Part shown: in pieces, positions 13,204-29,842 of the stretch
Layout: every line of letters starts with the position of its first letter
How positions within the stretch are numbered: the stretch's first letter is position 1
From: Flavobacterium sp. 9
Lineage (GTDB): Bacteria > Bacteroidota > Bacteroidia > Flavobacteriales > Flavobacteriaceae
DNA length: 64,000 nt
Direction of reading: 5' to 3'
NCBI RefSeq assembly: GCF_002754195.1
Contig: NZ_PEEU01000001.1
Span: forward strand, 4,526,001-4,590,000
Position numbers and translations under genes: made by a program
The notes under the pieces: model-generated
What the model was told of the DNA's origin: nothing
The model's database searches: none
Seen by the model: only the letters and a program-made list of their open reading frames with translations

Positions 13204-14817
13204 TTATTGAAGTTCAATATTTACGGGTAAGCTTCCGTTGCAAGTAGCATTTTCAAGAAATTGAATTCCTGCAATTTTTTGAAATTCTTCAAAATCCTGA
13301 TACGCCTGAATTAATCCTGAAGCCTTAGAAAGATTCGGGATTATTGGCAAAACATACGGATTTCCGAAAACATAAACGATACATTTTTTGGTTTGAAGTA
13401 ATCTTGAAAGTAAATCTAAAACTTCAGTATTAATTTCGAAATTGTTCATTGGTTTTGCCTTTGGAACAAATAATGAAATAATTATGGTTTCGAAATTTTG
13501 AAGTTCTTTTTCGATCGAAGAAATGTTTGAAACTTCTAAATTTTCAAAAGCAAATTCCGGAGATTTTAATTCTGAATTTATCGTTTTGAAGAACGTGTTT
13601 TCTACATTTTTATACAAACTCAATTTTACTAATTGATTGTTCTTTTGAGATTCAAAAGCTAATTCACTATTAGAATTATCGATAATTTTTGTAATTGAAT
13701 TTTGAGCAATTTCAAGATTCAGTTTTGATGTTTTTTCGAAATTTAATTCTCCCGAAGTAAAATTAGAATCAGCAATAATTCCAACTTTTTCTTTGGCTTT
13801 CATTATTCTGTTGAAACTTTCTTCGATACGTTCCGGCGATGCATTTTTAAGAATTGCTTCAATTCCTTCCGGAACATTTTCGGCAAAGCATAAAACATCA
13901 TTTCCGGCATTGAAAGCTTCCCATTCCAGTTCACCTTTTGTTTCATACAATTTAGAAACGCTGTGCATGTTTAGCGCATCCGAAATTACCAAACCATCAT
14001 AACCCAATTGTTTGCGTAAAAGTATTTCAATAATAGGTTTTGATAAAGTTGCCGATGTATCTTTTCCGTCATTTAAACTCGGAACCGCCAAATGTCCAAT
14101 CATAATCGAATCAACATTATTTTCGATTCCTTTAATGAACGGATATAATTCGTTTTCTAATAATTCTTCTAAAGTTTCCTTTAAAACCGGTAATCCCAAA
14201 TGCGAATCTACATTCGTGTTTCCGTGTCCGGGAAAGTGTTTCAGACAGCCTAAAACCCCAACTTCAGACATTCCGTTAAGATATTCAACAGCAAAATCAG
14301 CAACTTTTTCTTTGTTTTCGCCAAAAGAACGATATCCAATAACGGGATTATTCGGATTGTTATTAATATCTGCCAAAGGCGATAAATTATAATGAATTCC
14401 GGCAGCTTTTAAGTCTAAACCAATTTGTTTTCCAACTTCATAAACCAAAGCTGATTTACTTTCCGGCAAAGCGCCAAGCGTAATTGCATACGGATATTGT
14501 GGCGTTTTTTCGATACGCATTGCCAAACCCCATTCGGCATCAATACTGATTAAAAGTGGAGTAGAAGCAGCTTTTTGATAACGAACAATTAAGTCTTTGA
14601 TTTTTTGATAACTATCGTCATTAAAAACAACTTTTTTCTTGCTTTCATAGTTGGTTGCAGCACTGGCACGACTATGAAAAAAAGTCAATCCGCCAATGTT
14701 ATGTTCTTTTATCAAACGTTCGGTTTCCTGAATGTTTTCTTCGGTATCGTTTATGAAAACTGCAGGAAAAAAGAATTGTCCCACTTTTTGTCTTAATGCT
14801 TGTGCTGTCATTTTCAT
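13204..14817 (-). CDS. nagZ: Glycoside hydrolase family 3 beta-N-acetylglucosaminidase (NagZ type)
   Basis: The GH3 domain spans about residues 5-340. KHFPGHGNTNVDSHLG carries the Asp-Ser-His pair that acts as acid/base in NagZ, and GLVISDALNMHS carries the nucleophile Asp. The remaining ~190 residues look like the second GH3 domain found in two-domain NagZ enzymes. The position after HG is Asn where many NagZ have Asp. NagZ removes GlcNAc from GlcNAc-anhydroMurNAc muropeptides. No signal peptide is seen, so it is probably cytoplasmic. I chose the ATG at 14817, two bases after the preceding stop, over an ATG at 14841 that overlaps the GNAT gene. It ends the peptidoglycan-sugar locus. Confidence 0.88.
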   Translation of the reverse strand: MKMTAQALRQKVGQFFFPAVFINDTEENIQETERLIKEHNIGGLTFFHSRASAATNYESKKKVVFNDDSYQKIKDLIVRYQKAASTPLLISIDAEWGLAMRIEKTPQYPYAITLGALPESKSALVYEVGKQIGLDLKAAGIHYNLSPLADINNNPNNPVIGYRSFGENKEKVADFAVEYLNGMSEVGVLGCLKHFPGHGNTNVDSHLGLPVLKETLEELLENELYPFIKGIENNVDSIMIGHLAVPSLNDGKDTSATLSKPIIEILLRKQLGYDGLVISDALNMHSVSKLYETKGELEWEAFNAGNDVLCFAENVPEGIEAILKNASPERIEESFNRIMKAKEKVGIIADSNFTSGELNFEKTSKLNLEIAQNSITKIIDNSNSELAFESQKNNQLVKLSLYKNVENTFFKTINSELKSPEFAFENLEVSNISSIEKELQNFETIIISLFVPKAKPMNNFEINTEVLDLLSRLLQTKKCIVYVFGNPYVLPIIPNLSKASGLIQAYQDFEEFQKIAGIQFLENATCNGSLPVNIELQ

Positions 14818-14819
14818 TA

Positions 14820-15269
14820 TTATAAAGTCTTTTTCATACAAACGCTATTATCCATTTTTTCGTAAGGAGGATAATTCGGAATTATAGAATAACCCAGTTT
14901 TTGATATAAATTGATTGCTTCCGGTTGGTTTTTTCCGGTTTCGAGAATAGTATAAGTATAACCAACTTCTTTTGCCCAAATTTCTAATTCGGCCAAAACC
15001 TGAGATGCAATTCCTCTTTTTCGGAAATCATGATGAACAAACATTCGTTTAATTTCGGTCGTACCACTTTCTTTTTCTCTAAAAGCACCACAACCAACAG
15101 GAATGTCGTTTTCATAATAAACGAGAACATGTTTAATCTTATCGGTTTTATTAAACTGATTGTAAAAGTCGTGATCTTCACCGTCTCTAATCGCTAAATC
15201 TTTGTCCAACAAAGCAACAAGATTTATAAAGTCGATATCGTCTGAATTGGTTCGTTTTAAAGTACTCAT
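14820..15269 (-). CDS. GNAT-family N-acetyltransferase
   Basis: This 149-residue protein has the GNAT core: VPVGCGAFREKESGTTEIKRMFV, then HDFRKRGIASQVLAELE, the acetyl-CoA pyrophosphate loop of the RxxGxA type, and TILETGKNQPEAINLYQKLGY. It is cytoplasmic. It ends two bases before nagZ, so the two are probably co-translated. This raises the possibility that it acetylates an amino sugar or a peptide released from muropeptides, but the substrate cannot be read from sequence. Confidence 0.87.
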   Translation of the reverse strand: MSTLKRTNSDDIDFINLVALLDKDLAIRDGEDHDFYNQFNKTDKIKHVLVYYENDIPVGCGAFREKESGTTEIKRMFVHHDFRKRGIASQVLAELEIWAKEVGYTYTILETGKNQPEAINLYQKLGYSIIPNYPPYEKMDNSVCMKKTL

Positions 15270-15403
15270 AATTCAAAAAAGTTTAGTAAAAATAAAAGCA
15301 AGTTGCCTTATTTTTTTACCATATAAAATATTAAGCTATAAAGATTGGCTTAAATTACTTAATCTCCTGATATAAAAGAAAACTAAGCTTAATTTAAATC
15401 CAG

Positions 15404-15745
15404 TTATTTCAATTTTGCTTTCTTTTGTTTAGCCAATTGTTTTTTGGTTTCAATAGCTTTTTCTAGTCGGTTTTTGAAACGGAAAAGTTTAGGCAAACCT
15501 TCAAGTCTGTCTACCAGAGTAATTTCTTCGTAAACGATAATGGCTTTTTCTAAAACTCTAATTTCATTTTCAATATCATTTTCATTTTTATAGATCGTTG
15601 CTAATCGATCATAAGGATGATTTCCTTTAAAGCTTTCCTTGACATTTTCCTCATATAACTCAATTGCTTTTTCTAAATTTCCTGTTTTCTCGAACTCAGC
15701 TCCTTTCAAGTTGCGTTCGGCCTGCAAATTTTCATTGATTTCCAT
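15404..15745 (-). CDS. Small TPR-like protein
   Basis: This 113-residue, strongly charged helical protein resembles two to three tetratricopeptide units (KGAEFEKTGNLEKAIELYEENV; NHPYDRLATIYKNENDIENEIRVLEKAI) and ends in a lysine-rich tail. It has no signal or membrane segment. TPR proteins act as protein-binding scaffolds. It starts 23 bp after the AmpG-like permease and is probably in the same transcript. Its partner is unknown. Confidence 0.7.
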   Translation of the reverse strand: MEINENLQAERNLKGAEFEKTGNLEKAIELYEENVKESFKGNHPYDRLATIYKNENDIENEIRVLEKAIIVYEEITLVDRLEGLPKLFRFKNRLEKAIETKKQLAKQKKAKLK

Positions 15746-15768
15746 ATGTAAGATGTTTGATTTGGGGT

Positions 15769-17091
15769 TTAAACTTCTTCAGATTTCTTCCCAAAATCTT
15801 TTGGGAAAATTAAAAAACGTGATAAAATAAGACCTGGAATCGTAGCGATTATTACCCAAATAAAGAAGTGTTCATAACCTAAATATTTTTGAATAAAACC
15901 ACTTAACATTCCCGGAAGCATCATTCCTAATGCCATAAAACCTGTTGCAAGTGCATAATGTGCTGTTTTTGATTCTCCTTCGGCAACATATATTAAATAC
16001 ATCATAAAACCTGTGAAACCAAAACCGTATCCAAATTGTTCAAGAATTACAGTAATGCAGGTATATAGATTTAAAGGAGAGTTAATTTCGAAAAAATAAA
16101 AATTTAAATGAAGATGAAAAAGCTCTTGCGGCTGAAAATGAGCTAATCCAATAAAACCAAGAATAGGCAAATGCATGGCAAGAAACATTGGAAACATCCA
16201 TTTAGTCAGACCGTGTTTTGAGAGTGCGATTCCGCCTAAAATTCCTCCAACGGTTAAAGCAAAAATCCCTAAAGTTCCATAGATTATTCCAACGGCTTCA
16301 GTATCTAGTCCCATTCCGCCAATTTCTTTTTTATCAAGTAAAAACGGAGTTAACATTTTTAGTAACTGAGATTCACCAAGTCTGAAAACAAGTATAAAAG
16401 CCAGAATTATTCCAATTTGTTTTTTTTGGAAGAAACTTATAAATATAGTTGCAAAGTTTTGATGATGTGCTTTATCGGTACTTTCTGATGCATTTATTTC
16501 GTCTTTTGGAGTAAAAATGAAATTGTAAATCGTAATAAATGTCATTAATAAACCAACAAAAATCATGGTATAAGACCAGGCTTTTGTATTGTCACCATAT
16601 TTATGTTCTAAATAGCCGGCAAGCAAAACAATTAATCCGTTTCCGGCAAGCATCGAAAGTCTGTAAAATGTGCTTCTGATTCCAAGGAAAAAAGATTGCT
16701 GTTCTTTTGGTAAAACCAATAAATAAAAGCCATCAGTCGCAATATCATTCGAAGCCGAAGCAAAAGCTGCGACCCAGAAAATTGCTAAAGTCATTATAAA
16801 AAAGCCACTCGCAGGAATCGTAAATCCGACCAGTAAAAAGGCAATCGAAATTAATAATTGCATCGATAAAAACCATTTTCTTTTAGTTCCCGTCAACTCA
16901 ATAAACGGACTCCAAAGCGGTTTTATAACCCAAGGTAAGTATAATAAACTGGTATAAACGCCAATGTCTTCGTTTGAAATACCCAGATTCTTGTACATAA
17001 TTACAGAAACTGAGATAATTACGGCATATGGCAAACCGGATGCAAAATTTAGAAACGGAATCCAGAACCAGGGTTTATTATCTATTTTCAT
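15769..17091 (-). CDS. AmpG-like MFS permease for muropeptides
   Basis: This 440-residue protein has about twelve hydrophobic helices. The N-terminal pattern (FASGLPYAVIISVSVIMYKNLG, then PWVIKPLWSPFIE) and ASNDIATDGFYL match AmpG, which imports GlcNAc-anhydroMurNAc peptides and disaccharides across the inner membrane using the proton gradient. It overlaps the glycosidase gene upstream by 14 bp and is followed by the small TPR gene. The neighbours AnmK, MurQ and NagZ act directly on what AmpG imports, which supports the call. Confidence 0.85.
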   Translation of the reverse strand: MKIDNKPWFWIPFLNFASGLPYAVIISVSVIMYKNLGISNEDIGVYTSLLYLPWVIKPLWSPFIELTGTKRKWFLSMQLLISIAFLLVGFTIPASGFFIMTLAIFWVAAFASASNDIATDGFYLLVLPKEQQSFFLGIRSTFYRLSMLAGNGLIVLLAGYLEHKYGDNTKAWSYTMIFVGLLMTFITIYNFIFTPKDEINASESTDKAHHQNFATIFISFFQKKQIGIILAFILVFRLGESQLLKMLTPFLLDKKEIGGMGLDTEAVGIIYGTLGIFALTVGGILGGIALSKHGLTKWMFPMFLAMHLPILGFIGLAHFQPQELFHLHLNFYFFEINSPLNLYTCITVILEQFGYGFGFTGFMMYLIYVAEGESKTAHYALATGFMALGMMLPGMLSGFIQKYLGYEHFFIWVIIATIPGLILSRFLIFPKDFGKKSEEV

Positions 17092-18652
17092 CAGGTTGTG
17101 CAGGGGTATAGATTTTATAATTCTTTTTTAAGTCGATTGCAGTCGGTGTACTTTCGTTCGCAAAATAATCAATAAATGTTACAGCGCAAGCTTTGTACTG
17201 TTTCATTTTTTCGGCAGGAATAGAAAATACAATTGTTCCGTCATATTGATTAACCGCGATTTTGTCAACTATTTTCGAAGGATCATTAATATCTACATTA
17301 GAGACATTTTCTCCGCCGTAAATTACCATATAACGAACCTGAGTGTTCAATGGAGATTTAATATTTAATACATATTTATTAGTGCTGTCTTTTTGAAATT
17401 CATTTAAAACCGGAATATCAATTACAATATGTTTCAAATTAGGAACCGCAGCCGGAAGTGCCGGATATTTATATTGGTTTTCTGCTAATAAACGAACAAC
17501 ATCAAAGTTTTTATCTATGAACCATTTAGAACTGAAATAGGCGCTTCCGCCAACATTTTTAAAACTTCTGGCAAAATCAACCTGATTTGGAATTTCAGTT
17601 GCAAAGTTCCAGCTTTTGTCACCGTCGCCTCTGATTTTATAAGAAGCGTGTCCAATATAAATGGCAGTATTATTAGAATTTTCAGACCACCATTTTACTA
17701 ATTTCGAATAAGAAGCTCTCGGATTATTCATGCTCCAATACAATTGAGGCGCGATATAATCAATCCATTTTTGGTCCATCCATAAAACAGGATCTGCATA
17801 CAAATCATCGTAATTTGCTGTCGATTGAGTTTCAGAACCTTTTGGATCTACTGATTTATTACGCCAAACCCCAAACGGACTTATCCCGAATTGTACCCAA
17901 GGTTTGCTTGTTTTAATCATTGTCGAAATAGTGTGAACAAAGTTGCTCACATTGGCACGACGCCAATCGCCAAGGCTTAAACCTGCGCCATATTTTTTGT
18001 AAGATACAGTATCATTAAATGTTTTTCCGGGAACAGTATAAGGATAAAAATAATCATCAAAATGAATTGCATCGATATCGTATTTATCGACAACTTCTTT
18101 TACAACTTTAGTCAAATGTTCCTGAACTTCAGGCAAAGCAGGATCATAATAGATTTTTCCGCCATATTCAATCATCCATTCCGGATGTTTAAAAATGTCG
18201 TGATTTGGGCTTAATTGTTGTTTGTTTAGATCGAAAGTAGCACGATAAGGATTCAGCCACGCGTGAAATTCGAAACCTCTTTTGTGTGCTTCCTCAATCA
18301 TCCAAGCCAATACATCATAATACGGATTTGGTGCCTGACCTTCTTTCCCTGTTAAAAATCGAGACCACGGAGCAAGTTCTGAAGGATAAAGAGCATCTCC
18401 AACACTTCTAACCTGAACAATTACGGCATTATAGTTTAGTTTTTTATAAGCGTCTAAAATCTCAATATAATCTGCTTTTTCTTTTTCTACACCATCGGTG
18501 GCAGTTTTTGGCCAGTCGATATTTACAACGGTTGCAATCCAGACACCTCTAAATTCGTTTTTAGGATGTGCAGTTCTTTCCTGTGCATTGGATTTCCATC
18601 CAAAGAAAAATAAAAATATAATAGAGAATAATAGTTGCTGATTTTTATGCAT
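17078..18652 (-). CDS. Exported GHL10/DUF187 glycosidase (DigH/YddW-like)
   Basis: This 524-residue protein has an N-terminal signal peptide ending at KSNAQ, then the GHL10 TIM barrel: FRGVWIATVVNIDWP, YNAVIVQVRSVGDALYPS, FEFHAWLNPYRA and DAIHFDDYFYPY, with acidic catalytic candidates in the last motif. The C-terminal ~110 residues are beta-rich, like a fibronectin-type module. E. coli YddW, renamed DigH, is a published glycosidase that cuts peptidoglycan glycan strands lacking stem peptides. I infer a similar role in trimming glycan chains in the periplasm or at the cell surface. No lipobox cysteine is seen. The start gives 94 bp of spacing from the NagX-like gene. Confidence 0.85.
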   Translation of the reverse strand: MHKNQQLLFSIIFLFFFGWKSNAQERTAHPKNEFRGVWIATVVNIDWPKTATDGVEKEKADYIEILDAYKKLNYNAVIVQVRSVGDALYPSELAPWSRFLTGKEGQAPNPYYDVLAWMIEEAHKRGFEFHAWLNPYRATFDLNKQQLSPNHDIFKHPEWMIEYGGKIYYDPALPEVQEHLTKVVKEVVDKYDIDAIHFDDYFYPYTVPGKTFNDTVSYKKYGAGLSLGDWRRANVSNFVHTISTMIKTSKPWVQFGISPFGVWRNKSVDPKGSETQSTANYDDLYADPVLWMDQKWIDYIAPQLYWSMNNPRASYSKLVKWWSENSNNTAIYIGHASYKIRGDGDKSWNFATEIPNQVDFARSFKNVGGSAYFSSKWFIDKNFDVVRLLAENQYKYPALPAAVPNLKHIVIDIPVLNEFQKDSTNKYVLNIKSPLNTQVRYMVIYGGENVSNVDINDPSKIVDKIAVNQYDGTIVFSIPAEKMKQYKACAVTFIDYFANESTPTAIDLKKNYKIYTPAQPDENR

Positions 18653-18746: not shown

Positions 18747-20015
18747 TTATACTTTAAAAATCATGCCCTTTTTGTAAAAATACCATAAAACACAACTCCA
18801 TAGAAGAATATATAGTACTGAATAAGTAAGGGACGATATCATTTGATTTTCAAAAAGTGGACTAATCCAGTATTGGTAGGCATAATCTCTAACGTTTATT
18901 TGTTCCGAAATATTTTCCGGGTTCTGAACTTTAATTAATGCAAGTGCGCGAGGCAATATTCCGGAAACGAAAAATACAATCATTGGATTTACGCCCCAAC
19001 TCAATAAAAATTTCGTCCATTTTTTGTTTTCCAATACATCTACAATATAGTAAATCAACGTAAGAAGTAAAAGTGCAATTCCAGCAGTAAATAAAACGTA
19101 AGAACTCGTCCAAAGCGCTTTGTTTATTGGGAAAAATACAGACCATAATAATCCTGAAAGAATTAATATAATACTGATGATTCCCATTTTTTTGGCGATT
19201 TCCAGTTTTGGCAAAGGCTTCAGAAGTAATTGCCCAATTAGTAAGCCAATTATTCCGTTTGCGATAGTTGGTATAGTGCTTAGAATTCCTTCTGGATCCC
19301 AGGTTTTAGTAGCAATATACATATGATCTTTTAGTAAAATACTGTCTAACCATGAAGCCAAATTAGTGATAGGTTCAAGGTTTGAGTAACCAATTCCCGG
19401 AACAGGAATCAACGTCATTATTGCCCAATATCCCAATAAAATTGAAGAACTCAGAATGATTTGAGTTTTTATAGTTGTTTTTAAATAGATAATCGAAACA
19501 AAGAAATACACAATTCCAATGCGTTGTAGAACGCCGGGAAGTCTCACGTCTTTAAAGTTTTCGTGTCCGCCATAAGCCAGAGTCAGAAAAATTATAAATA
19601 AACTAATAGCTAAAATTGTTTTGGTTTTTAACTTAAAATCGCCAATTAAAGCATATCCAACTATAAATGTAATCGCTAAACGAACAAGCAAAAGCGGAAA
19701 TCCATCCAATCCTAAAAAGTAAATACTATTAAAAAAGTACAAAAAGAATCCGAGGCAAATAATGCGCAACGAACGTGTTATTATTTTGAGAATATTTTCG
19801 GGTTTGTCTTGTTTAACAGGCATTGCCAAAGGAACTGCAATTCCTACAACAAAAATAAAAAACGGAAATACGAGATCAGCCAGCGTGCAGCCATTCCATT
19901 TTGCGTGATCGAGAATTGGATAAACATAATCCCAGCTTCCCGGATTATTCACAACCGTCATCAATAAAACGGTAAGTCCTCTTAAAACATCAACTGAAAT
20001 AATGCGATCTTTCAT
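18747..20015 (-). CDS. NagX-like membrane acyltransferase (DUF5009/HGSNAT family)
   Basis: This 422-residue protein with about ten to twelve membrane segments begins RIISVDVLRGLTVLLMTVVNNPG and continues HAKWNGCTLADLVFPFFIFVVGIAVPLA. This is the pattern of the heparan-alpha-glucosaminide acetyltransferase/DUF5009 family and contains the conserved region with the acceptor His. The family includes NagX of bacterial GlcNAc utilisation clusters. It probably acetylates a glucosamine unit using cytoplasmic acetyl-CoA, or transports an amino sugar; the exact role is not established. Its place between AnmK and a glycan-cleaving enzyme supports action on peptidoglycan sugars. Confidence 0.83.
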   Translation of the reverse strand: MKDRIISVDVLRGLTVLLMTVVNNPGSWDYVYPILDHAKWNGCTLADLVFPFFIFVVGIAVPLAMPVKQDKPENILKIITRSLRIICLGFFLYFFNSIYFLGLDGFPLLLVRLAITFIVGYALIGDFKLKTKTILAISLFIIFLTLAYGGHENFKDVRLPGVLQRIGIVYFFVSIIYLKTTIKTQIILSSSILLGYWAIMTLIPVPGIGYSNLEPITNLASWLDSILLKDHMYIATKTWDPEGILSTIPTIANGIIGLLIGQLLLKPLPKLEIAKKMGIISIILILSGLLWSVFFPINKALWTSSYVLFTAGIALLLLTLIYYIVDVLENKKWTKFLLSWGVNPMIVFFVSGILPRALALIKVQNPENISEQINVRDYAYQYWISPLFENQMISSLTYSVLYILLWSCVLWYFYKKGMIFKV

Positions 20016-20349
20016 TTTTCTATTTTATTTAATTCGTTTGGGGCAATTATTTTTAACACATTGTCTCGAAGCTTAATATAATTAAGTTAAGCTTTTAGAA
20101 AATAAAATTAATCTCGCAAAGGCGCGAAGTCGCAAAGTTTTGTCATTTCGACCGAAGGGAGAAATCACACGCGTAGCTCGACAAAGATTGGCGACATTAC
20201 TTTACGGAGTTTCTTGTGTGATTTCTCCCTTCGGTCGAAATGACAATATTGTATTTAGACTTTGCGACTTCGCGACTTTGCGAGAGATTTATTCGCCATC
20301 GTCCCGACGCTTCGGGATAGATTTTTTCTTAACTTCATGACATTCTATA
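20016..20349. other. Intergenic gap filled by a nested palindrome
   Basis: No gene is supported in this 334-bp gap. The open frame at 20140-20340 is an artefact of the palindrome at 20109-20290. The rest is AT-rich. Confidence 0.7.
20109..20290. repeat. Composite nested palindrome (two repeat families)
   Basis: The inner arms TGTCATTTCGACCGAAGGGA... (20141-20170) and its exact complement (20216-20245) form a perfect 30-bp inverted repeat around about 45 bp. The outer arms read AATCTCGCAAAGGCGCGAAG (20110 on) and CTTCGCGACTTTGCGAGAGATT (20269-20290). Related inner arms occur at 23309, 41073, 41340 and 51120, and related outer arms at 23411 and 51029. Confidence 0.85.
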
Positions 20350-21558
20350 TTAATTGGGTAATGAAATTTTCCCCATAGTTACAGATGGGATTCCTTGATG
20401 AGAACCAAAATTAAAATCTTCTCCCGCTACAGTTTGATTGGCAAGAATGGCAAATAAAACCGCTTCTTTGGCATCGCCTGAAATTCCTAAATCATCACTT
20501 TTGTGAAATGTACAAGGCAATAATTCTTTTAACCATTTTACTAATAATGGATTATGCGTTCCTCCGCCAGACATATAGATTTTGAAATCTTCAAGTTTAG
20601 AAGCGCTTTTTTTAACAGCATAATGAATGGCTTCGGCAATTGTTTCGGCACTAAAACGCGTTAAAGTCGCCAATAAATCTGATGCTGAAATTGTATCAAT
20701 ATTGCTTTTTGCCAAAGCAGCTTTTACATAAGCTTCGCCAAAAAGTTCCGGACCAATAGTTTTTGGAAATTCCTGACTGAAAAATGTATCGTCTTTCAAG
20801 TTGTCTAATAACGATTGATTTACAGTTCCTTGTTGCGCGATTTCGGCATCTTTGTCGTAACTTTTTTCAGGAAAATATTGTTTTGTAAAAAGATCAATTA
20901 AGGTATTTCCGGTTCCGGTATCGGTTACAAAAGTTTCTTCGGCATTTAGGGAAGCGGGTAGAAAAGTAAAATTGGCAATTCCGCCCATGTTAAGCATAAT
21001 GCGGTTTTCGCCCTTTTTTCCAAATAAAAAATAATCGCCATAAACCGCCAATGGAGCGCCTTCGCCACCTGCTGCAATATGTTTTTGTCTAAAATCAGAC
21101 AAAGTAATAATGCCTGTTTTTACTGCAATATGATCGCCATCTCCAATTTGTAAAGTAGCATTTGGAAATTTTTCTTGTTGATGCAAAAACTTTGGCGCAT
21201 GCAAAACCGTTTGACCGTGCGAAGCAATTAAATCAATTTCATCAGCAGAAATATTTCGTTTTCTAAGAAAAGCGTTGATCATTTCGGCATGCAAAATACC
21301 AATCCATTCGTTAAGCATTACCAAATGCTGAAAATCAATTTCTTTCTTCGCAAAAACTTTACGGATCTCAATTTTAATTTCTTCCGAGTAATCGATAGTT
21401 TCAAATTGAGTTACTTTGACAGCGGTATTTTGGCCTGAGCCCGAAATTTCGCATAACGCAATATCGAGTCCGTCAAGCGAAGTTCCGGACATTAATCCGA
21501 TTATTTTTCGGGTTTCTTTTTGTGCGATTTGGTAAAGTGCGCTTATATTTTTGTTCAT
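20350..21558 (-). CDS. anmK: Anhydro-N-acetylmuramic acid kinase
   Basis: This 402-residue protein has the AnmK signature IGLMSGTSLDGLDIAL (nucleotide-binding and catalytic start), HGQTVLHAP, MLNMGGIANFTF and DTGTGNTLIDLF. AnmK opens the 1,6-anhydro ring of anhydroMurNAc and phosphorylates it to MurNAc 6-phosphate, the substrate of MurQ encoded two genes upstream. It is cytoplasmic and of normal family length. The N-terminal 15 residues before KIIGLMSG are somewhat longer than usual. It follows the sodium symporter after 68 bp. Confidence 0.94.
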   Translation of the reverse strand: MNKNISALYQIAQKETRKIIGLMSGTSLDGLDIALCEISGSGQNTAVKVTQFETIDYSEEIKIEIRKVFAKKEIDFQHLVMLNEWIGILHAEMINAFLRKRNISADEIDLIASHGQTVLHAPKFLHQQEKFPNATLQIGDGDHIAVKTGIITLSDFRQKHIAAGGEGAPLAVYGDYFLFGKKGENRIMLNMGGIANFTFLPASLNAEETFVTDTGTGNTLIDLFTKQYFPEKSYDKDAEIAQQGTVNQSLLDNLKDDTFFSQEFPKTIGPELFGEAYVKAALAKSNIDTISASDLLATLTRFSAETIAEAIHYAVKKSASKLEDFKIYMSGGGTHNPLLVKWLKELLPCTFHKSDDLGISGDAKEAVLFAILANQTVAGEDFNFGSHQGIPSVTMGKISLPN

Positions 21559-21626: not shown

Positions 21627-23132
21627 TTAAAAAGAGATTTTTTCTTCAGAAGTTTTGCTTGTAAAATAAAGTCCGATATAAGTGAATAATCCGTTTAAGA
21701 TTATAAGTTCATTATCAAAAGTATAACCTATAATTGAAGCCGAATGTTCACTCACAAAATACGTCAAAATTGGAGCGATAATACAAATTACAGGCACAAT
21801 TTTGTCGTTTACGCGTCTTGATTTTTGTAATAATCCAAAAGCATATAATCCTAATAATGGTCCGTAAGTATAAGATGCCGCTCTGAAAATTAAAGCCACT
21901 ACAGAACTATCATTAAAAGAATTTAAGACAATAATCACGAGAAATAATAGTATCGAAAATCCAAAATGAACTAAATGTCTTCTTCTGATATTGTTGTTGT
22001 TTGAGAGATTTTCTGTTTTGTCCATTCCCATAAAATCCACACAAAATGAAGTGGTTAAAGCCGTCAATGCCGAATCTGTCGTAGCAAAAGTAGCGGCGAT
22101 AATTCCTAATAGAAAAACAAATGCCGGAACAATTGACAAATGATTCAATGCAATTTCCGGGAAAAGTAAATCTGTTCTTGGTTTTCCGGTTACTAAATCT
22201 AGCGGAGTTGAAATGCCGTTTTTGTTTGCGTAGATGTATAATAAAGCGCCTAAACTTAGAAAAATAATGTTGATAAGCACAAATACGCCCGTAAACGTAA
22301 ACATGTTTTTTTGTGCTTCGCCGATATTTTTGCAACTCAGGTTTTTTTGCATTAAATCCTGATCAAGTCCAACCATTGCAATGGTTACAAAGATTCCGCC
22401 AAGGATTTGTTTTACAAAATGATATTTGCTGGTTAAGAAATTATCAAAGAAAAATACTTGCGAATAGTTGCTTTTTCGAATGGTTGAAACAGATTCAATT
22501 ACGCTTAAATTCAAACTGTCGCACACAAAATAAATGGTGATAAAAACAGAAGTAACTAAGAAAAAAGTCTGTAAAGTATCCGTAATAATAATGGTTTTTA
22601 AACCGCTTTTGTAAGTATATAAAAATATTAGAGTCAAGGCTAAAAACACCGTCATAGGAAATGGAATTCCATAAAAATCAAAGACATAACGCTGTAAAAC
22701 AATAACCACTAAATACAATCGAAATGCCGAACTTACGGTTCTGCTTACCAAAAAAATCGACGCAGCAGTTTTATAACTGTTTGTTCCCATTCTTTGTTCG
22801 ATATAACCGTAAATAGATGTAAGGTTCATTCGATAATATAACGGAAGTAATACTTTGGCGATAATAATAAACCCAATCGCGTTTCCTAAAATGAACTGAA
22901 AATACTTGAATTGTTCTCCGTTTGGCGATCCGACTTCGCCAGGAACCGAAATAAAAGTCACGCCGGATAATGCGGTTCCAATCATTCCAAAAGCAACTAA
23001 ATACCATTTAGAATTTTTATTGGCTTTAAAAAACGAATCATTGTCTTGTCCTTTTTTACTTATGACTTGAGAAATGAGTAATAATAGTCCAAAATATACG
23101 ATGATAAAAATTAAGATGGTGCTTGAAGACAT
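21627..23132 (-). CDS. Sodium:solute symporter (SSS family)
   Basis: This 501-residue protein has about thirteen membrane helices. It starts STILIFIIVYFGLLLLISQ and carries GTALSGVTFISVPGEVG, the sodium-site region of the family, and GIIAATFATTDSALTALTT, a strongly conserved SSS motif. It couples sodium entry to uptake of a solute such as a sugar or sialic acid-like compound. Its place between MurQ and AnmK suggests MurNAc, anhydroMurNAc or another cell-wall sugar as the cargo, which is an inference from context. Confidence 0.87.
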   Translation of the reverse strand: MSSSTILIFIIVYFGLLLLISQVISKKGQDNDSFFKANKNSKWYLVAFGMIGTALSGVTFISVPGEVGSPNGEQFKYFQFILGNAIGFIIIAKVLLPLYYRMNLTSIYGYIEQRMGTNSYKTAASIFLVSRTVSSAFRLYLVVIVLQRYVFDFYGIPFPMTVFLALTLIFLYTYKSGLKTIIITDTLQTFFLVTSVFITIYFVCDSLNLSVIESVSTIRKSNYSQVFFFDNFLTSKYHFVKQILGGIFVTIAMVGLDQDLMQKNLSCKNIGEAQKNMFTFTGVFVLINIIFLSLGALLYIYANKNGISTPLDLVTGKPRTDLLFPEIALNHLSIVPAFVFLLGIIAATFATTDSALTALTTSFCVDFMGMDKTENLSNNNNIRRRHLVHFGFSILLFLVIIVLNSFNDSSVVALIFRAASYTYGPLLGLYAFGLLQKSRRVNDKIVPVICIIAPILTYFVSEHSASIIGYTFDNELIILNGLFTYIGLYFTSKTSEEKISF

Positions 23133-23458
23133 TTTGGTTTTGGATTAGTTATGAAATTATTTTTTAATTTGGTTGGTGTAATTTAAAAGTTCAATTAAAC
23201 ACAAATTTCACGAATTGTCACTAATTTATTTGTGAAATTAATTTGTAATATTTGTTGCCACATGAAAGTCCAATTAGACACAATAGTCCCGAAGCTAAAA
23301 CACAATATTGTCATTTCGACGGAGGAGAAATCTTCGTAAGTCGCTCGACAAAGATTAAAGATTTTGCATGCGGAGTTTCTTGTGGAGATTCCTCGTTCCT
23401 CGGAATGACAAAACTTCGCGACTTTGCGAGAGATTCACTTTTTAAACTATTCTCTACT
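23133..23458. other. Intergenic gap with palindromic repeats
   Basis: The 326-bp gap between murQ and the symporter holds no gene. It contains an AACACAAATTTCACGAATTG-type stretch near 23197-23245 (related to 24359-24462) and the palindrome at 23309-23436. Confidence 0.65.
23309..23436. repeat. GTCATTTCGA-type palindrome with one outer arm
   Basis: TGTCATTTCGACGGAGGAGA at 23309 is answered by GAGATTCCTCGTTCCTCGGAATGACA ending at 23410. Between the arms the sequence CTCGACAAAGATT matches the core at 20178-20190. The following CTTCGCGACTTTGCGAGAGATT (23414-23435) is the same outer arm as at 20269-20290, but its partner on the left is absent. Confidence 0.75.
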
Positions 23459-24280
23459 TTATTTCTTAGCGCTATTCTCCTGTAAAACAGCTCTGACGCT
23501 TTTGTGTTTTTGCAGTAATTCGGCAGCAAGATCGTGTTCGATATTAAGTTCTTCCATGATCATTTTAATGGCTCTTTTTACTAATTTTTCGTTAGACAAT
23601 TGCATGTCAACCATTTTGTTGCCTTTGATTTTTCCCAGTTTAATCATAACCGAAGTTGAGATCATATTTAAGGTTAGTTTTTGAGCGGTTCCGGCTTTCA
23701 TACGAGTACTTCCCGTTAAAAATTCAGGACCTACGACGACTTCTATTGGATAATCGGCGACTTCAGCAATTAAACCTTTGCTAATGCAGGAAATACTACC
23801 GGTTTTAATGTTGTTTTCTTTTGCTTTTTTGAGTCCGCCTAAAACGTACGGCGTGTTTCCCGAAGCAGCGATTCCGATAATAAAATCCAGACTCGAGATT
23901 TGATGTTTGGATAAATCCTTCCAGGCTTGTTCGGTATCGTCTTCAGCATTTTCGACTGCTTTTCTTATTGCAGTATCTCCACCGGCAATAATTCCGATAA
24001 TCATATCGTGTGGAACGCCAAAAGTTGGAGGACATTCAGAAGCATCCAGAATCCCGATACGTCCGGAAGTTCCGGCTCCAATATAAAATAACCGTCCGCC
24101 AAGCTGCATTTTTTTTACGATTGCTTTTACCAGTTTTTCAATCTTCGGAATTTGTTTTTCAACAATAAGTGGTACTTTTTTATCTTCGGTATTTATGTTT
24201 ATGAGCAATTCTTTGGTGCTCATTTGGTCTAAATTTTTATACAGAGATTCTTGTTCAGTTTCAGGGTTTTTGTTTGGCAT
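23459..24280 (-). CDS. murQ: N-acetylmuramic acid 6-phosphate etherase
   Basis: This 273-residue SIS-domain protein has the MurQ signature FYIGAGTSGRIGILDASECPPTFG, with the catalytic Glu in ASEC, and EVVVGPEFLTGSTRMKAGTAQKL further on. It cleaves the lactyl ether of MurNAc 6-phosphate to give GlcNAc 6-phosphate and D-lactate in the cytoplasm. The length is slightly short of the usual ~300 residues but all core motifs are present. It sits between SusD and the sodium symporter in the peptidoglycan-sugar locus and directly follows AnmK in the pathway. Confidence 0.95.
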   Translation of the reverse strand: MPNKNPETEQESLYKNLDQMSTKELLININTEDKKVPLIVEKQIPKIEKLVKAIVKKMQLGGRLFYIGAGTSGRIGILDASECPPTFGVPHDMIIGIIAGGDTAIRKAVENAEDDTEQAWKDLSKHQISSLDFIIGIAASGNTPYVLGGLKKAKENNIKTGSISCISKGLIAEVADYPIEVVVGPEFLTGSTRMKAGTAQKLTLNMISTSVMIKLGKIKGNKMVDMQLSNEKLVKRAIKMIMEELNIEHDLAAELLQKHKSVRAVLQENSAKK

Positions 24281-24358
24281 AACAAATAAATTGTGGTTAT
24301 TTTATAAAAAATCGGGGTATAGTGTTATCGTTTGGGCATAAATATTATGAATCAATTT

Positions 24359-24462
24359 TGAACACGAATTTCACAAATTAACACTAATTAGGTTTGTGAA
24401 ATTAATTTCGCAAACTAAGCTAGCCTATTAAAATTTGTGCAAATCTGTGAAATTCGTGTTTA
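24359..24462. repeat. Inverted repeat CACGAATTTCACA/TGTGAAATTCGTG
   Basis: AACACGAATTTCACA near 24360 pairs with TGTGAAATTCGTGTT near 24448-24462. Between the arms the words TTTGTGAAATTAATTTCGCAAA add smaller stems. It lies in the 236-bp gap between susD and murQ and could mark an mRNA processing or termination point within the operon. Confidence 0.75.
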
Positions 24463-24516
24463 CAATATTTATGTTGGACTATAAATGAATTATATCATAC
24501 CCCAATTTTACAATTT

Positions 24517-25794
24517 TTAGATAGCAGGATCTGGAGGCGTGTTTGTATTATTATTTCTCTCAGAATCCGGATAAGGATACCAGTTACGGTTTCTTTCGGC
24601 TCCGGCTGTTCCTGCGCCCGGACGATCAAATCTTCTGCTGTCTTCCAGTTTCAGGCTTGACATATACATTTCGATACAGCGATTTCTGTAAATCTCGGTT
24701 AAAATTGCAGATTTTGTAATCGCTCCGGTATATGGCGCAAGATTAGCTCCAATTCCGTAAGTATCAGCCGCAGCAGTTTTGGTTAAAACTTTATTTAATT
24801 CTATAATTGCTTGTGGTAAATTGTCTTTACGCGCATATCCTTCAGCTTTGATTAACATCATTTCGCCAGGTAAATAAAGCGGAATTGGTTTAATATTAGA
24901 ATCAAAGAAACCAGTTGCAACCGTAGGATTTGAACCTGGTTTAATGTAGAAATTCAATCTTCCGTCTGCGCTATCAGGCGCTAAACTTGCTGGTAATCCT
25001 AAGGTTAAATCAACAGGTTGAAAAACATTATTTGTCGTAATCGAAATATAAGCAATTGGGTTTGCACTAATCTGATCGAAAGCAAAAATTGATTTAACCG
25101 AAAGATCAACCATTCCTGCATAAGTAATGGCATTGTCATAATCTCCAGCCATTAAATAGGTTCTTGCCAAAAGCGCATAAACGGAATTTTTATAATTAAC
25201 TCCGGCTACCAAACCAGAAAATCCTGTTGCTTTGTCCAATAAAGGTTCCGTTGCTTTTAGAATTTTAATTGCTTCTGTTAACACATCTGCTCTGGAATCA
25301 AAAGTGGCATTTTTTCCTGTTTTTAAAGGTACACTTTGAAAATATTGTACAAGAGTTGTAATCGCCATTGCTTTAAAAATTGTAGCATGAACAAGAACAC
25401 TTGCTTTTTCGTTTTCCGAAGTTAATACATCAATATGATCGATAACTTTTTGAGATTCAGATTTAATCACAAGACATTGTGACCATAGATTGTTTACGAC
25501 TTGATTTTTGGTCGAAAGAACGCCGCCACCAACAGAAAGTTCACCTTCGTCAACATTTCCGGCATTTAGCAATCGCAATTCTTTTGTTGTAAATCCGTTT
25601 CCTGTAATCGTGTTGTAAACAGGACTTATACGTTCGATAGTCCAAAGTTGCTGTAATCCATTGGCAGCACCAATGACTCCTTCTCTGGTTCCAAAAACCA
25701 ACTCCAAAGATGGTTTTGTTGGGTCAACATAATCTTCATTACAACTTGCAAAAAGCAATGTAAGAGCTACTATAGGGATGAATATTTTTTTCAT
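24517..25794 (-). CDS. SusD/RagB-like nutrient-binding lipoprotein
   Basis: This 425-residue protein has a lipoprotein signal (KKIFIPIVALTLLFASCNED, lipid Cys in FASC). Helical TPR-like SusD features follow: VVNNLWSQCLVIKSESQKVIDHID, YALLARTYLMAGDYDNAITYAG, and the late EMMLIKAEGYARKDNLPQAIIELNKV with EIYRNRCIEMYMSSLKLEDSRRF. SusD proteins form a lid over the SusC channel on the cell surface and bind the glycan or peptide cargo. It starts 15 bp after susC. It is shorter than many SusD proteins (about 500 residues). Cargo is inferred from neighbours to be peptidoglycan fragments. Confidence 0.9.
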   Translation of the reverse strand: MKKIFIPIVALTLLFASCNEDYVDPTKPSLELVFGTREGVIGAANGLQQLWTIERISPVYNTITGNGFTTKELRLLNAGNVDEGELSVGGGVLSTKNQVVNNLWSQCLVIKSESQKVIDHIDVLTSENEKASVLVHATIFKAMAITTLVQYFQSVPLKTGKNATFDSRADVLTEAIKILKATEPLLDKATGFSGLVAGVNYKNSVYALLARTYLMAGDYDNAITYAGMVDLSVKSIFAFDQISANPIAYISITTNNVFQPVDLTLGLPASLAPDSADGRLNFYIKPGSNPTVATGFFDSNIKPIPLYLPGEMMLIKAEGYARKDNLPQAIIELNKVLTKTAAADTYGIGANLAPYTGAITKSAILTEIYRNRCIEMYMSSLKLEDSRRFDRPGAGTAGAERNRNWYPYPDSERNNNTNTPPDPAI

Positions 25795-25809
25795 GATGTT
25801 TTTGTTTGA

Positions 25810-28800
25810 TTAAAATTGAACTTTTACGGCCAATGAGTATGAACTTGGAATTGGCACTGTTCCAAAATTGTATTTCGCAACCGATGATTGTCCGCCAGAA
25901 TTGGTTTCCGGATCAAAACTGGTGAAATTATCCCATGAAATCAGGTTTCTTCCACTAGCTGTAATCGTTAAATCATCAAAGAAGTTGTTTAATTTTCCGA
26001 AAGAATAATTCAAAGAAACTTCTCTTAATTTCAGGTAACTTCCGTCAACAACTCTAAACTCTTCAATATTATAAATCGACCAGATATAACCACGAGGTAA
26101 TTCTCCGTTAAGCTCTTTGGTTACAATTGTTCCTGATCCTACACCTTGTCTGGTTCTGTAATCGGCATCAAAAACATCTACGCCCTGAACGCCATCAAAT
26201 AATACTGAAAGTCCCCATTTTTTGTAATTCACATTGGCTCCAAAGGCAATCACATAATCCGGATTTGGATTACCAATTTGTTTGTTCAAAATAGTTCCTG
26301 TTGGTTGTCCGTTCGCATCTCTTTGTGGCGCTCCGGTAGCCACATCACCTTTTTCAGTTTGAGGATATCCGTCTGGAGTTAGTAATAAACTTCCGTCTGA
26401 ATTTCGGGCAAAATAAGTACCGTAGAAAATCCCGATTGGTTTGTTCATTTCTACAAAAACAGGCGCTCCGGCTAAATTACTGTCTAATTTAAAACGTTGT
26501 TGTGGTAATCCTGTTACTTTATTTCTGTTGCTGCTATAGTTTACAAAAACGTCAACATGTAAATTCTCTTTTTTGATAAGGTCATATTTCAAATTGATTT
26601 CATACCCTTTATTGTTCATTTGTCCAATGTTTTTAATGGTATTTGTAGCTCCTTCAGAAGCCGCCAATTGAACTGGTAACAACAAATCATCAATATCTGC
26701 ATTGTAATAACTGAAAGATAAATTCAGACGATCTTTCAAGAAACCAAAATCACCACCAACTTCATATGTAACACTTTGCTCCGGTTTTAAGTCTAAGTTT
26801 CCTTGTTTGAATCCTTCAATAGTAAAAGTACTATTTCCTAAAAGAGTTCCTGTAGAATAGTTGGTAAAACGGGCATAAGGTTTAATAGCCGTTAAACTTC
26901 CTGATTTTCCCCAAGAAGCTCTAAAACGTACCGAACTTACAGCGTCATGAATTCCTTCCATAAATTTTTCGTCAGAAAGTACATAACTCGCACTTGCTTT
27001 TGGATAAAATTGAGATCGGTTATCGCTTGAGAAAATAGTAGATGCATCTTGTCTTCCGGCAATTGTCAGATAAAGTTTGTCTTTGTATCCAACAGTTTCC
27101 TGAAGATAATATCCCCATAAATTGTATTTGGACTGACTGGAACTTGGCGAACCCGGAATCAGTGTATTAAAAGCATTTATAGTTTCAATAAATGGTTTTA
27201 GATTACGACCTTCGATAGCAGCAAAATCGTCACGATAGGTTTGTACGTTGTAACCTCCATAAGTTGTAGCTTTCCATTTATCATTGATATTCCAAAGATA
27301 TCTTAAGTTCAAATCGTTGTTAAATTGTACAACTCTGTTGCTGGCTTCAGAAACATAACCGTCGTTGTAATACGCAGGATTCACCACATAAGGATATCTT
27401 GGAATAAATACATTTCCTCTTTGGTTGTAATTGTCGATACCAAAAATCAAATCGGCATTGAAATTTTTAAAAGGAGTATAATTCAACTGTAAATCCGAAA
27501 TAATACGATCTGTATTTTGTGTGATTTTGAAATCCTCAATTATCGAAAGCGGATTAACTCTGTTTGGATCAACAGCCATTAAATTGCCATTAATATCTCT
27601 TCGATGAATGTCGTATGTGTTATTGGTAATATTGATCGCATTAATTGGACTCCAGAAAACGTTCCCATCCGGTTTTTCATTCGAACTTGAATTCACGTAA
27701 TTTAATCCTACCGTAGCAGACAATTTTGAATTGAAATCATGTTTTAATCTCACTTTGGCACCGGCTCTTTTGAAATCGGTATTTTTTACAATTCCTTCGT
27801 TTACCAAATAGCCAAGAGAAGCAAAATATTTAGTTTTTTCATCTCCGCCTTGAAGAGAGAAGTAAGTGTCAGTTCCAACGCCTGTACCAAAAATATCATC
27901 TTGATAATCGTATCTTTTTACATCAGTAGTTCTGGTTTCAAGATTTCGACCAAGAACAGTTACTGTAGTTGGACTTGCAGGATTTCCCTGAATTGGGAAT
28001 AATGCAGGAGAAGTGCTCACAAACTGTTTGTCAGACATATTCATATCCAGTTTTTTTCGGATTTGGTTTGAAGTCACGCTCGTCGAAAAAGTATATCTCG
28101 TTTCGCCTGCTACACCTTTTTTAGTCGTAATTAAAACCACACCGTTTGCAGCTCTTGATCCGTAGATTGCTGCGGCAGCACCTCCGTTCAAAACTTCTAC
28201 GCTTTGTATGTCATTCGGATTAATATCTGCAGATCTGTTTTGACCAATTTGCATATTTGAGTTTCCGGTCGTAACATTCAGGTTGGTTACATTGGTTGTG
28301 GCATTGTTCAAAACCACACCGTCAATAACATATAATGGATCAGAAGAACCTAAAATAGATGAAGTTCCTCTAAGTTTGATGCTGAAACCTCCGGCAGGAT
28401 CTCCTGAGTTTTGAGAAACCTGTGCTCCGGCAATTTTTCCCTGCAAAGCTGTCGAAAGACCTCCGGGTTGCGCTTTAACCAAATCTTCACCTTTTATACT
28501 TGTTACAGCATTTCCAAGTTCTTTACGTGTTGCACGAACTGTAGAACCCAAAACAACAACTTCAGAAAGTGTGTTGAGCTCTTCGGTCATTTTAAGATTA
28601 ACGGAGTTGGTGCCGGCTGTAATTTTGACTTTTTTAGACGCAAATCCAACAAAAGTAAAAACGAGAGTTTCGCCTTCGTTTACAGCGATGCTGAATTTTC
28701 CGTCTAAATCAGTTACGGTACTTTTAGAGGTTCCTTCAATCAAAACGGATACTCCTGGTAGAGAAAGTCCGTCAGTACTACTCGTAATTGTACCGGTTAC

Positions 28801-28872
28801 GGTTTTTGTTTGCGCAAGAACGGGTTGAGCAAACAAAATAATTCCAAATAAAATAAATAATAGTTTTTTCAT
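25810..28872 (-). CDS. SusC/RagA-family TonB-dependent outer-membrane receptor
   Basis: This 1020-residue protein starts with a signal peptide ending at QPVLAQ. A carboxypeptidase-like regulatory domain follows (TVTGTITSSTDGLSLPGVSVLIEGTS). Next comes the plug with the SusC marker NPNDIQSVEVLNGGAAAAIYGSRAANGVVLITTKKG, and then the 22-strand barrel ending at AVKVQF, with the terminal Phe typical of outer-membrane barrels. With SusD it forms a TonB-powered importer. As first gene of the peptidoglycan-sugar locus, divergent from a DeoR regulator, it probably imports muropeptides or glycan chains. The cargo is inference. Confidence 0.93.
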   Translation of the reverse strand: MKKLLFILFGIILFAQPVLAQTKTVTGTITSSTDGLSLPGVSVLIEGTSKSTVTDLDGKFSIAVNEGETLVFTFVGFASKKVKITAGTNSVNLKMTEELNTLSEVVVLGSTVRATRKELGNAVTSIKGEDLVKAQPGGLSTALQGKIAGAQVSQNSGDPAGGFSIKLRGTSSILGSSDPLYVIDGVVLNNATTNVTNLNVTTGNSNMQIGQNRSADINPNDIQSVEVLNGGAAAAIYGSRAANGVVLITTKKGVAGETRYTFSTSVTSNQIRKKLDMNMSDKQFVSTSPALFPIQGNPASPTTVTVLGRNLETRTTDVKRYDYQDDIFGTGVGTDTYFSLQGGDEKTKYFASLGYLVNEGIVKNTDFKRAGAKVRLKHDFNSKLSATVGLNYVNSSSNEKPDGNVFWSPINAINITNNTYDIHRRDINGNLMAVDPNRVNPLSIIEDFKITQNTDRIISDLQLNYTPFKNFNADLIFGIDNYNQRGNVFIPRYPYVVNPAYYNDGYVSEASNRVVQFNNDLNLRYLWNINDKWKATTYGGYNVQTYRDDFAAIEGRNLKPFIETINAFNTLIPGSPSSSQSKYNLWGYYLQETVGYKDKLYLTIAGRQDASTIFSSDNRSQFYPKASASYVLSDEKFMEGIHDAVSSVRFRASWGKSGSLTAIKPYARFTNYSTGTLLGNSTFTIEGFKQGNLDLKPEQSVTYEVGGDFGFLKDRLNLSFSYYNADIDDLLLPVQLAASEGATNTIKNIGQMNNKGYEINLKYDLIKKENLHVDVFVNYSSNRNKVTGLPQQRFKLDSNLAGAPVFVEMNKPIGIFYGTYFARNSDGSLLLTPDGYPQTEKGDVATGAPQRDANGQPTGTILNKQIGNPNPDYVIAFGANVNYKKWGLSVLFDGVQGVDVFDADYRTRQGVGSGTIVTKELNGELPRGYIWSIYNIEEFRVVDGSYLKLREVSLNYSFGKLNNFFDDLTITASGRNLISWDNFTSFDPETNSGGQSSVAKYNFGTVPIPSSYSLAVKVQF

Positions 28873-29045
28873 TTTAAAATATTTGTTTGGTTAGAAAACC
28901 TAAATATAGGGATTAATTCTAATAAATGAATTTTTTTGCAATATTTTTATTTAGAATATAATAAAATGCATAAAAACGCAATAATAATTGTTTTATAATG
29001 CTATTTTGAACTTTGTAGAAGTGATTTGAAAATATTAATGTTCAA

Positions 29046-29067
29046 ATCGTGCACGATAATGCATTAT
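29046..29067. promoter_or_regulatory. Candidate operator: two overlapping 12-bp palindromes
   Basis: ATCGTGCACGAT (29046-29057) and ATAATGCATTAT (29056-29067) are both perfect palindromes that share two bases. They lie directly upstream of the promoter element of the DeoR gene, so a bound repressor could control it and, across the gap, susC. Confidence 0.5.
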
Positions 29068-29071
29068 ATTT

Positions 29072-29079
29072 TATATTTG
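29072..29079 (+). promoter_or_regulatory. TAnnTTTG promoter element of the DeoR-family gene
   Basis: TATATTTG matches TAnnTTTG. Transcription would begin near 29086, giving a leader of only about seven bases before the ATG at 29093. Confidence 0.55.
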
Positions 29080-29092
29080 TTAAAAAATTAAA

Positions 29093-29842
29093 ATGCTTAA
29101 AAAAGAAAGACATCAATTTATCATGGATAAATTTAAGAATGTCGAAAAAATAAATACGATTGATCTTGCCTTAGAATTGAACATTTCTGAGGATACAATA
29201 CGTAGGGATTTTAATGAATTACACAACAAAGGACTCATCAATAAAGTATATGGTGCCGCTTTTCCTGTAAAAGAAAAATCAAATAATGTATTTGATATTA
29301 CCATTATTAATGAAGACAAAAAGATAATAGTAGGACAAAAAGCGTTGTCGTTTTTAAGCGAAGGACAAGTGATTATAATGACCGGAGGAACGACCAATTT
29401 ATCTTTTTGCAAACTTATTCCAATAGATTTCTCCGCTACTATATATACGTATAGTTTGCCTATTGCTATGCAGTTATCACAACATCCTAATATCGAGTTG
29501 ATTTTTATTGGAGGCAAATTACAGAAAAAAGCCATGGTAACCGTTGGCATCGACGTAGTTCAGGTTTTGTCTAAAATCAGAGCCGATGTTTGTTTTCTGG
29601 GCGTAAGCAGTTTAGACGTCAATCAAGGACTTACCGAAATGGGATATGAAGTCTCAATCATCAAAAAAGAAATGATCAACGCCTCAGACAAAGTTATTGT
29701 TCTGGCAACCTCAGATAAAATAAACGGCAAAATGCCACATCAGGTTTGTGGTCTCGACAAAATAGATGCAATCGTAACGGAGCTAAACCCAAAAAGTTCC
29801 AGAATTAGAAGTTTTGTAGAAGCTGGAGCTAGAGTGTATTGA
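29093..29842 (+). CDS. DeoR/GlpR-family transcriptional regulator
   Basis: This 249-residue protein has an N-terminal DeoR helix-turn-helix (RHQFIMDKFKNVEKINTIDLALELNISEDTIRRDFNELHNKGL). The C-terminal DeoRC sugar-phosphate sensor carries GQVIIMTGGTTNLSFCKLIP, FIGGKLQ and CFLGVSSLDVNQGLTEMGYE. Members usually repress catabolic operons and are released by a phosphorylated sugar. Divergent placement next to susC makes it the likely local regulator, with MurNAc 6-phosphate or GlcNAc 6-phosphate as plausible effectors. That is inference from context. Confidence 0.88.
   Translation: MLKKERHQFIMDKFKNVEKINTIDLALELNISEDTIRRDFNELHNKGLINKVYGAAFPVKEKSNNVFDITIINEDKKIIVGQKALSFLSEGQVIIMTGGTTNLSFCKLIPIDFSATIYTYSLPIAMQLSQHPNIELIFIGGKLQKKAMVTVGIDVVQVLSKIRADVCFLGVSSLDVNQGLTEMGYEVSIIKKEMINASDKVIVLATSDKINGKMPHQVCGLDKIDAIVTELNPKSSRIRSFVEAGARVY

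Follow-up and report, generated by a model that had tools for sequence, protein, structure and literature searches.

In the anhydro-muropeptide recycling of Gram-negative bacteria, AmpG, NagZ, AnmK and MurQ each carry out a known reaction of their family. Within the Bacteroidota, the ampG-ybbC-murTKQ operon of Tannerella forsythia (Tanf_08345-08385) serves the use of environmental muropeptides and N-acetylmuramic acid (MurNAc) (PMC5388701, PMC7670621). How such fragments pass the outer membrane is unaddressed in the T. forsythia AmpG paper, where TonB gives 0 matches and the only SusC string stands in the reference list, and searches of the open-licence PubMed Central (PMC) literature, with subscription papers and preprints outside that scope, brought up no account of peptidoglycan being imported through SusCD. 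Here we describe a locus of Flavobacterium sp. 9 (contig NZ_PEEU01000001.1, positions 13,204 to 29,842 of the 64,000-nucleotide stretch analysed, called the window), in which a SusC-SusD pair precedes genes for the breakdown of wall sugars. We put at roughly 0.7 the probability that the locus is inducible and serves to utilise peptidoglycan glycan via the anhydro route, as a supplement to a housekeeping MurQ.

The genome is 6.33 Mb in a single contig, and the MurQ loci closest to that of the window are from Flavobacterium. An open reading frame check and family profile matches placed all 12 genes of the locus where the first-pass annotation of the window had put them:

29093 to 29842, plus strand: DeoR-family regulator, divergent from susC (PF00455 131 bits, PF08220 50 bits)
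25810 to 28872, minus strand: SusC, TonB-dependent outer-membrane transporter (TIGR04056 625 bits, cut-off 368; solved SusC homologues E 1.8e-68)
24517 to 25794, minus strand: SusD, surface lipoprotein (AlphaFold model and fold match; Cys18 invariant in 32 orthologues)
23459 to 24280, minus strand: MurQ, MurNAc-6-phosphate etherase, second (locus-type) copy (NF003915 374 bits; solved MurQ 4lzj E 3e-75)
21627 to 23132, minus strand: SSF sodium/solute symporter, inner membrane (PF00474; best solved relative 5nv9, E 2.4e-22)
20350 to 21558, minus strand: AnmK, anhydro-MurNAc kinase (NF007149 682 bits, cut-off 616)
18747 to 20015, minus strand: NagX-like transmembrane acetyltransferase, DUF5009 (NF046061 168 bits; HGSNAT alignment)
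17078 to 18652, minus strand: GHL10 exported glycan-cleaving enzyme, DigH/Cwp19-like (PF02638 266 bits; Cwp19 5oq2 354.8 bits)
15769 to 17091, minus strand: AmpG-like permease of the major facilitator superfamily (MFS) (TIGR00901 191 bits; E. coli-type AmpG structure 9c3f E 5e-25)
15404 to 15745, minus strand: small tetratricopeptide repeat protein (PF13181 28.5 bits)
14820 to 15269, minus strand: GNAT acetyltransferase (PF00583 67 bits)
13204 to 14841, minus strand: two-domain GH3 NagZ (PF00933 229 bits; B. subtilis NagZ 3bmx E 2e-51)

Eleven genes therefore share the minus strand, and deoR is the only plus-strand gene. AmpG, NagZ, AnmK and MurQ of the anhydro-muropeptide route are all present, MurQ above the curated equivalog score (TIGR00274 324 bits, cut-off 302) and the AmpG-like permease below its own (TIGR00901 cut-off 350).

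The linkage of SusCD with wall-sugar genes was examined in a family sample of 299 genomes, including that of Flavobacterium sp. 9, searched with the window SusD. Its orthogroup was found in 22 of the 298 other genomes at E <=7e-46, the next matches reaching only E 7e-10. Within the 8 to 20 kb taken round each of these, at least one of MurQ, AnmK, AmpG, GHL10 and NamZ was present in 16/22 stretches, against 0/20 control stretches round weaker SusD matches, which were taken in list order with six passed over (Fisher p 4.8e-7). Recurrent partners were MurQ (8/22), NamZ (8/22) and AnmK (7/22). The NamZ link of L119 is weak because the gene lies close to the far end of its stretch. In a genus sample of 150 genomes, ten carried a window-type SusD, and comparison of coordinates placed eight of the ten at most 300 bp from a MurQ whose identity to the window copy is 74% or higher; the exceptions were G393, with MurQ about 9 kb off, and G367, with a distant MurQ only. 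NamZ was found in 4/10 of the genomes with window-type SusD and 111/140 of the others (p 0.011), a partial exclusion only.

Starting from MurQ instead, the best 80 of 324 confirmed loci were examined, a set biased to this locus type by that choice. In 63 of them, the 10-kb flank contained a SusC-like gene that lies upstream in the same orientation; for the close Flavobacterium loci (L001-L060, L078) the figure was 60/61, and in L016 SusCD lies downstream. The 80 included 15 loci with window-type SusD, 40 with the F. johnsoniae type and 9 with another SusC, so that different SusCD pairs precede the same MurQ-symporter core in relatives. The gene order DeoR-SusC-SusD-MurQ-SSF-AnmK-(NagX)-GHL10-AmpG was kept in all but one of the 15 window-type loci. 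The first-pass annotation had named, as a refuting outcome, that SusCD would not be kept together with murQ/anmK; in the family and genus samples alike, the tie of SusCD to the murQ/anmK/ampG/nagZ set was instead retained. These comparisons of gene content support a dedicated peptidoglycan-sugar utilisation locus as the predicted role, and the wall-sugar clusters suggest a recurring, exchangeable kit in the family. That the neighbourhood is coincidental, with SusCD part of an unrelated upstream unit, receives next to no weight from us: inverted repeats do lie in the 236-bp susD-murQ gap, but the same association is found in more than one genus and next to different SusCD pairs, and none of the 20 control SusD loci shows it.

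Other genes were also seen round the SusD-orthogroup loci. An FAD/4Fe-4S oxidoreductase lies beside AnmK/MurQ in L112 and L117 (below the NCBIfam cut-off) and could be a candidate for handling the D-lactate released by MurQ, while wall dipeptides could be the substrate of epimerase-like proteins in L117 and L127 (below the NCBIfam cut-off). Six loci, L121, L123, L126, L131, L120 and L122, carry a small methyltransferase gene, in four of the six inside a GHL10-AmpG-NagZ-AnmK run; L120 and L122 have this gene in common with loci of that kind. In L119 a Mur-ligase family protein, possibly Mpl, is encoded at 10874-12229 on the opposite strand near the SusD-orthogroup gene.

MurQ itself comes in two kinds. 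The genome of Flavobacterium sp. 9 carries a second MurQ elsewhere, 64% identical to the locus copy and in surroundings without SusC, and a MurQ at E <=1e-30 was found in 149/150 genus genomes. A copy at least 71% identical to the window MurQ was present in 30/150 among the matches listed, most other rows lying at 63-68%. On a tree of 49 MurQ sequences, drawn from the window and 48 selected loci, the label for SusCD linkage required 3 changes, against 14.2 in shuffles, 0/500 of which were as low. The clade holding 30 of the 32 SusCD rows was moderately supported (92/77); it also takes in three rows in which SusC was not detected (two from Salegentibacter, one on a 5.7-kb contig), and the SusCD-linked MurQs of L126 and L131 fall outside it. 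The two kinds of MurQ and the clustering of SusCD-linked MurQs on the tree therefore indicate that the locus MurQ is, judged by sequence, an accessory paralogue beside a separate housekeeping MurQ.

This bears on the possibility that the locus only aids self-recycling, SusCD being a leak-recovery pump for the cell's own shed turnover fragments without any nutrition from foreign walls. AmpG, NagZ, AnmK and MurQ are indeed the classical recycling set, and the genome holds one AnmK, that of the locus, and zero NamZ (PF07075 gave 0 matches, and matched in 3/14 control genomes), and anhydroMurNAc recycling would thus seem to need the locus. We nevertheless regard this explanation as unlikely, as a separate MurQ stands in a SusC-free neighbourhood and MurQ is near-universal in the genus, whereas the locus-type copy is accessory and a dedicated DeoR with its operator suits an inducible catabolic locus. 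The accessory MurQ, the patchy distribution, the dedicated regulator and the presence of SusCD speak for uptake of external material, and self-recycling through the same genes may coexist with it.

For the utilisation of peptidoglycan glycan via the anhydro route, the following steps can be proposed. At the cell surface, SusD would capture glycan or muropeptide fragments in soluble form, and SusC would import them with TonB energy; in this way foreign wall material could be taken up. In the periplasm, the GHL10 enzyme would cut MurNAc-N-acetylglucosamine (GlcNAc) bonds and leave GlcNAc-anhydroMurNAc, as suggested by Cwp19. AmpG would bring the disaccharide in, after which NagZ would take off GlcNAc, AnmK would open and phosphorylate anhydroMurNAc to MurNAc-6-P, and MurQ would convert this to GlcNAc-6-P and D-lactate. 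NagZ, which has the motifs KHFPGHG at 201 and VDSH at 211, is probably cytosolic, a signal peptide being absent. The SSF symporter would import a free sugar, for which anhydroMurNAc and MurNAc are the likeliest candidates; its best solved relative, 5nv9, is listed in the database as a sodium:solute symporter and is a sialic acid transporter.

The first-pass annotation had called the exported enzyme a DigH-like glycosidase. Its GHL10 domain stands; its sole solved relative is Cwp19 (5oq2, 354.8 bits, E 8e-105), and a transglycosylase fits AnmK better than a DigH-type hydrolase alone. Cwp19 of Clostridioides difficile was shown to be a lytic transglycosylase, with products that end in 1,6-anhydroMurNAc (PMC6016235), and for E. 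coli DigH denuded glycans are given as the substrate and release of anhydro-ends is reported as possible (PMC12288456). By analogy with Cwp19, the locus enzyme would have lytic transglycosylase activity, and cleavage of either the Cwp19 or the DigH kind would supply the substrate of the AmpG-NagZ-AnmK-MurQ route. By eye, its N-terminus shows a signal peptide and no lipobox Cys, so that the exported carbohydrate-active enzyme linked to SusCD in a polysaccharide utilisation locus (PUL) is present here.

The role of NagX, which the annotation had considered undescribed, has in fact been proposed: from fitness data, it would acetylate periplasmic glucosamine (PMC9007349). The NagX-like protein of the window missed the curated equivalog score (168 bits against the NF046061 cut-off of 480), and its His37 aligns with His297 of HGSNAT, the catalytic His on the membrane carrier. 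In the present locus it may serve to recover the sugars of N-deacetylated glycan, whose glucosamine would be re-acetylated with cytosolic acetyl-CoA. The family of MurT is disputed in the literature, being a sodium symporter or MFS protein in some papers and, for TfMurT, a distant relative of NagX in another (PMC9007349); an identity of the SSF symporter with T. forsythia MurT is accordingly not supported.

Some functions had been expected elsewhere in the genome, namely MurNAc kinase, AmpD and NagA/NagB. Four PF01182 (NagB-like) genes over the cut-off and two Amidase_2 genes were found outside the locus, their AmpD identity unassigned, but no PF01869-type kinase over the cut-off was detected in the genome. 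We take MurK, the MurNAc kinase of T. forsythia, to belong to this PF01869 family. For the exported GH3-beta-lactamase protein, the best match in the genome was the locus NagZ at 35%, so that an orthologue is likewise lacking.

The susC and susD genes are adjacent, with 15 bp between them. SusD lies under the Pfam cut-off (21.8 vs 27 bits), and its AlphaFold model (mean predicted local distance difference test score 78.7) matches solved SusD proteins (4q69, TMq 0.67), so the modelled fold is confirmed while the ligand is not revealed by structure. Chitin-binding SusD structures (5j5u, 8jxz) are among the fold matches, though below the best ones, and NagX is typical of chitin operons (PMC9007349). 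It could therefore be argued that the locus is a GlcNAc/chitin-type PUL, in which SusCD imports another glycan containing GlcNAc and the adjoining Mur genes have only the GlcNAc-6-P product in common with it. We find this improbable, since a Pfam scan of the locus genes gave no chitinase, GH18, GH19 or GH20 match and the recurrent partners MurQ, NamZ and AnmK act on MurNAc.

Between deoR and susC stands TGCRTTWTTWTGCRTT, a direct repeat of 10-bp period. The predicted operator is:

28965 to 28980, minus strand: predicted DeoR operator TGCGTTTTTATGCATT, direct repeat with 10-bp period, from conservation in DeoR-SusC intergenic regions

The motif TGCRTTWTTWTGCRTT is exact in 50/62 and within one mismatch in 60/62 DeoR-SusC intergenic regions, L067 (length) and L011 and L065 (misfit to the extraction) having been left out. 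Dinucleotide shuffles reached one mismatch or better in 0.6%, which is not an independent probability, the loci being related. The site persists beside different, unrelated SusCD pairs, and Zobellia L072 is without it (four mismatches). From this conservation, DeoR is predicted to repress the locus at the operator, and repression would be lifted once an intracellular sugar phosphate, the putative effector, accumulates. In the whole genome there were 3 exact and 10 one-mismatch sites (13 in total), compared with 7 when the pattern was reversed as a control. Of the 11 sites outside the window, seven were read in context and none was clearly the promoter of a sugar gene; DeoR is therefore most simply taken as a local regulator. 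An operator-like site with one mismatch also lies at 29849-29864, just 3' of deoR and before the unassigned gene at 30109-30639.

The gene run is broken by three gaps, of 236 (susD-murQ), 326 and 334 bp, each holding inverted repeats:

20016 to 20349: imperfect inverted repeat, 47 nt, 85% complementary
23133 to 23458: imperfect inverted repeat, 33 nt, 76% complementary
24281 to 24516: imperfect inverted repeat, 35 nt, 83% complementary

These look like REP-type insertions, because the MurQ-SSF gap is nearly missing in L008-L010. The flavobacterial promoter pattern is TTG, 15-23 bases and TANNTTTG; no full match to it was found in the operon gaps examined, and one was found in the gap from NagZ to the next gene. 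The repeat word GTCATTTCGA also occurs at 41074, 41204, 41341 and 41487, surrounding one of the three Flavo-1 RNAs (RF01705) of the window, which lie at 35475-35551, 41243-41320 and 48765-48842. Two tandem tRNA-Ser (tga) genes are found at 3749-3836 and 3976-4063.

Several observations weigh against a peptidoglycan utilisation locus. Six of the 22 SusD-orthogroup loci (L114, L120, L122, L127, L130, L132) had none of the five markers, two of them in short stretches (L114 on an 8.8-kb contig, L127 with 8 kb taken). L008 and L009 have no NagX and L010 has just a remnant of it, and the long repeat-bearing gaps make a single transcript doubtful. No peptidoglycan ligand is named among the best SusD fold matches, and family profiles detected no surface endo-enzyme releasing oligomers among the locus genes, so the locus should depend on soluble fragments made by others. 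Cwp19 also yielded some reducing-end products (PMC6016235), and the single AnmK means that the locus may also serve self-recycling.

A broader reading, which we hold to be about an even bet, is that the Flavobacteriaceae have a class of peptidoglycan loci, combining one MurQ lineage that branched off from the housekeeping MurQ and one DeoR/operator with exchangeable modules for import and for cleavage (different SusCD pairs; NamZ with exported NagZ, or GHL10-AmpG-NagZ-AnmK), in which SusCD would feed on the walls of other bacteria. On this same reading, no TonB-driven importer of peptidoglycan fragments across the outer membrane would have been identified before the SusCD pair of the window. 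A SusCD tied to MurNAc catabolism is a concrete candidate for the crossing of the Bacteroidota outer membrane by wall fragments, and through it the remains of dead bacteria would become a defined nutrient for Flavobacterium of soil and fresh water. The SusD orthogroup, the locus-type MurQ and the operator are testable markers for such loci in genomes and metagenomes.

The enzymes of the locus are already known, and it is their combination that can be compared with described systems. Like the T. forsythia operon, the window locus joins AmpG and MurQ in a Bacteroidota genome. The gene list of that operon lacks SusCD and includes ybbC, for which the window genome has no PF07075 counterpart; it has MurK in place of AnmK (no AnmK orthologue was predicted there), and control is by GppX rather than DeoR. 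The F. johnsoniae-type locus (L027: NagB/PIG-L, DeoR, SusCD, NamZ, MurQ, SSF, GH3-beta-lactamase, NagX) is closer, with MurQ 91%, SSF 76% and DeoR 61% identical, the same operator and SusCD upstream, but it has another SusCD pair, an exo-acting NamZ and an exported GH3-beta-lactamase protein, and none of AnmK, GHL10, AmpG or cytosolic NagZ was seen in its 20.8-kb stretch. With Cwp19 and DigH the GHL10 domain is common, the sequence comparison having been made with Cwp19 alone; the window enzyme is without CWB2 repeats, shows by eye no lipoprotein signal and sits in a sugar utilisation locus. SusCD PULs share the adjacent susC-susD, exported glycan-cleaving enzyme, transporter and regulator, whereas the window locus has a predicted peptidoglycan substrate, a DeoR regulator and no surface endo-enzyme. 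Finally, AmpG, NagZ, AnmK and MurQ are common to Gram-negative anhydro-muropeptide recycling and to the window locus, in which, by contrast, the set is linked to an outer-membrane SusCD pair, an exported GHL10 enzyme and a DeoR regulator.

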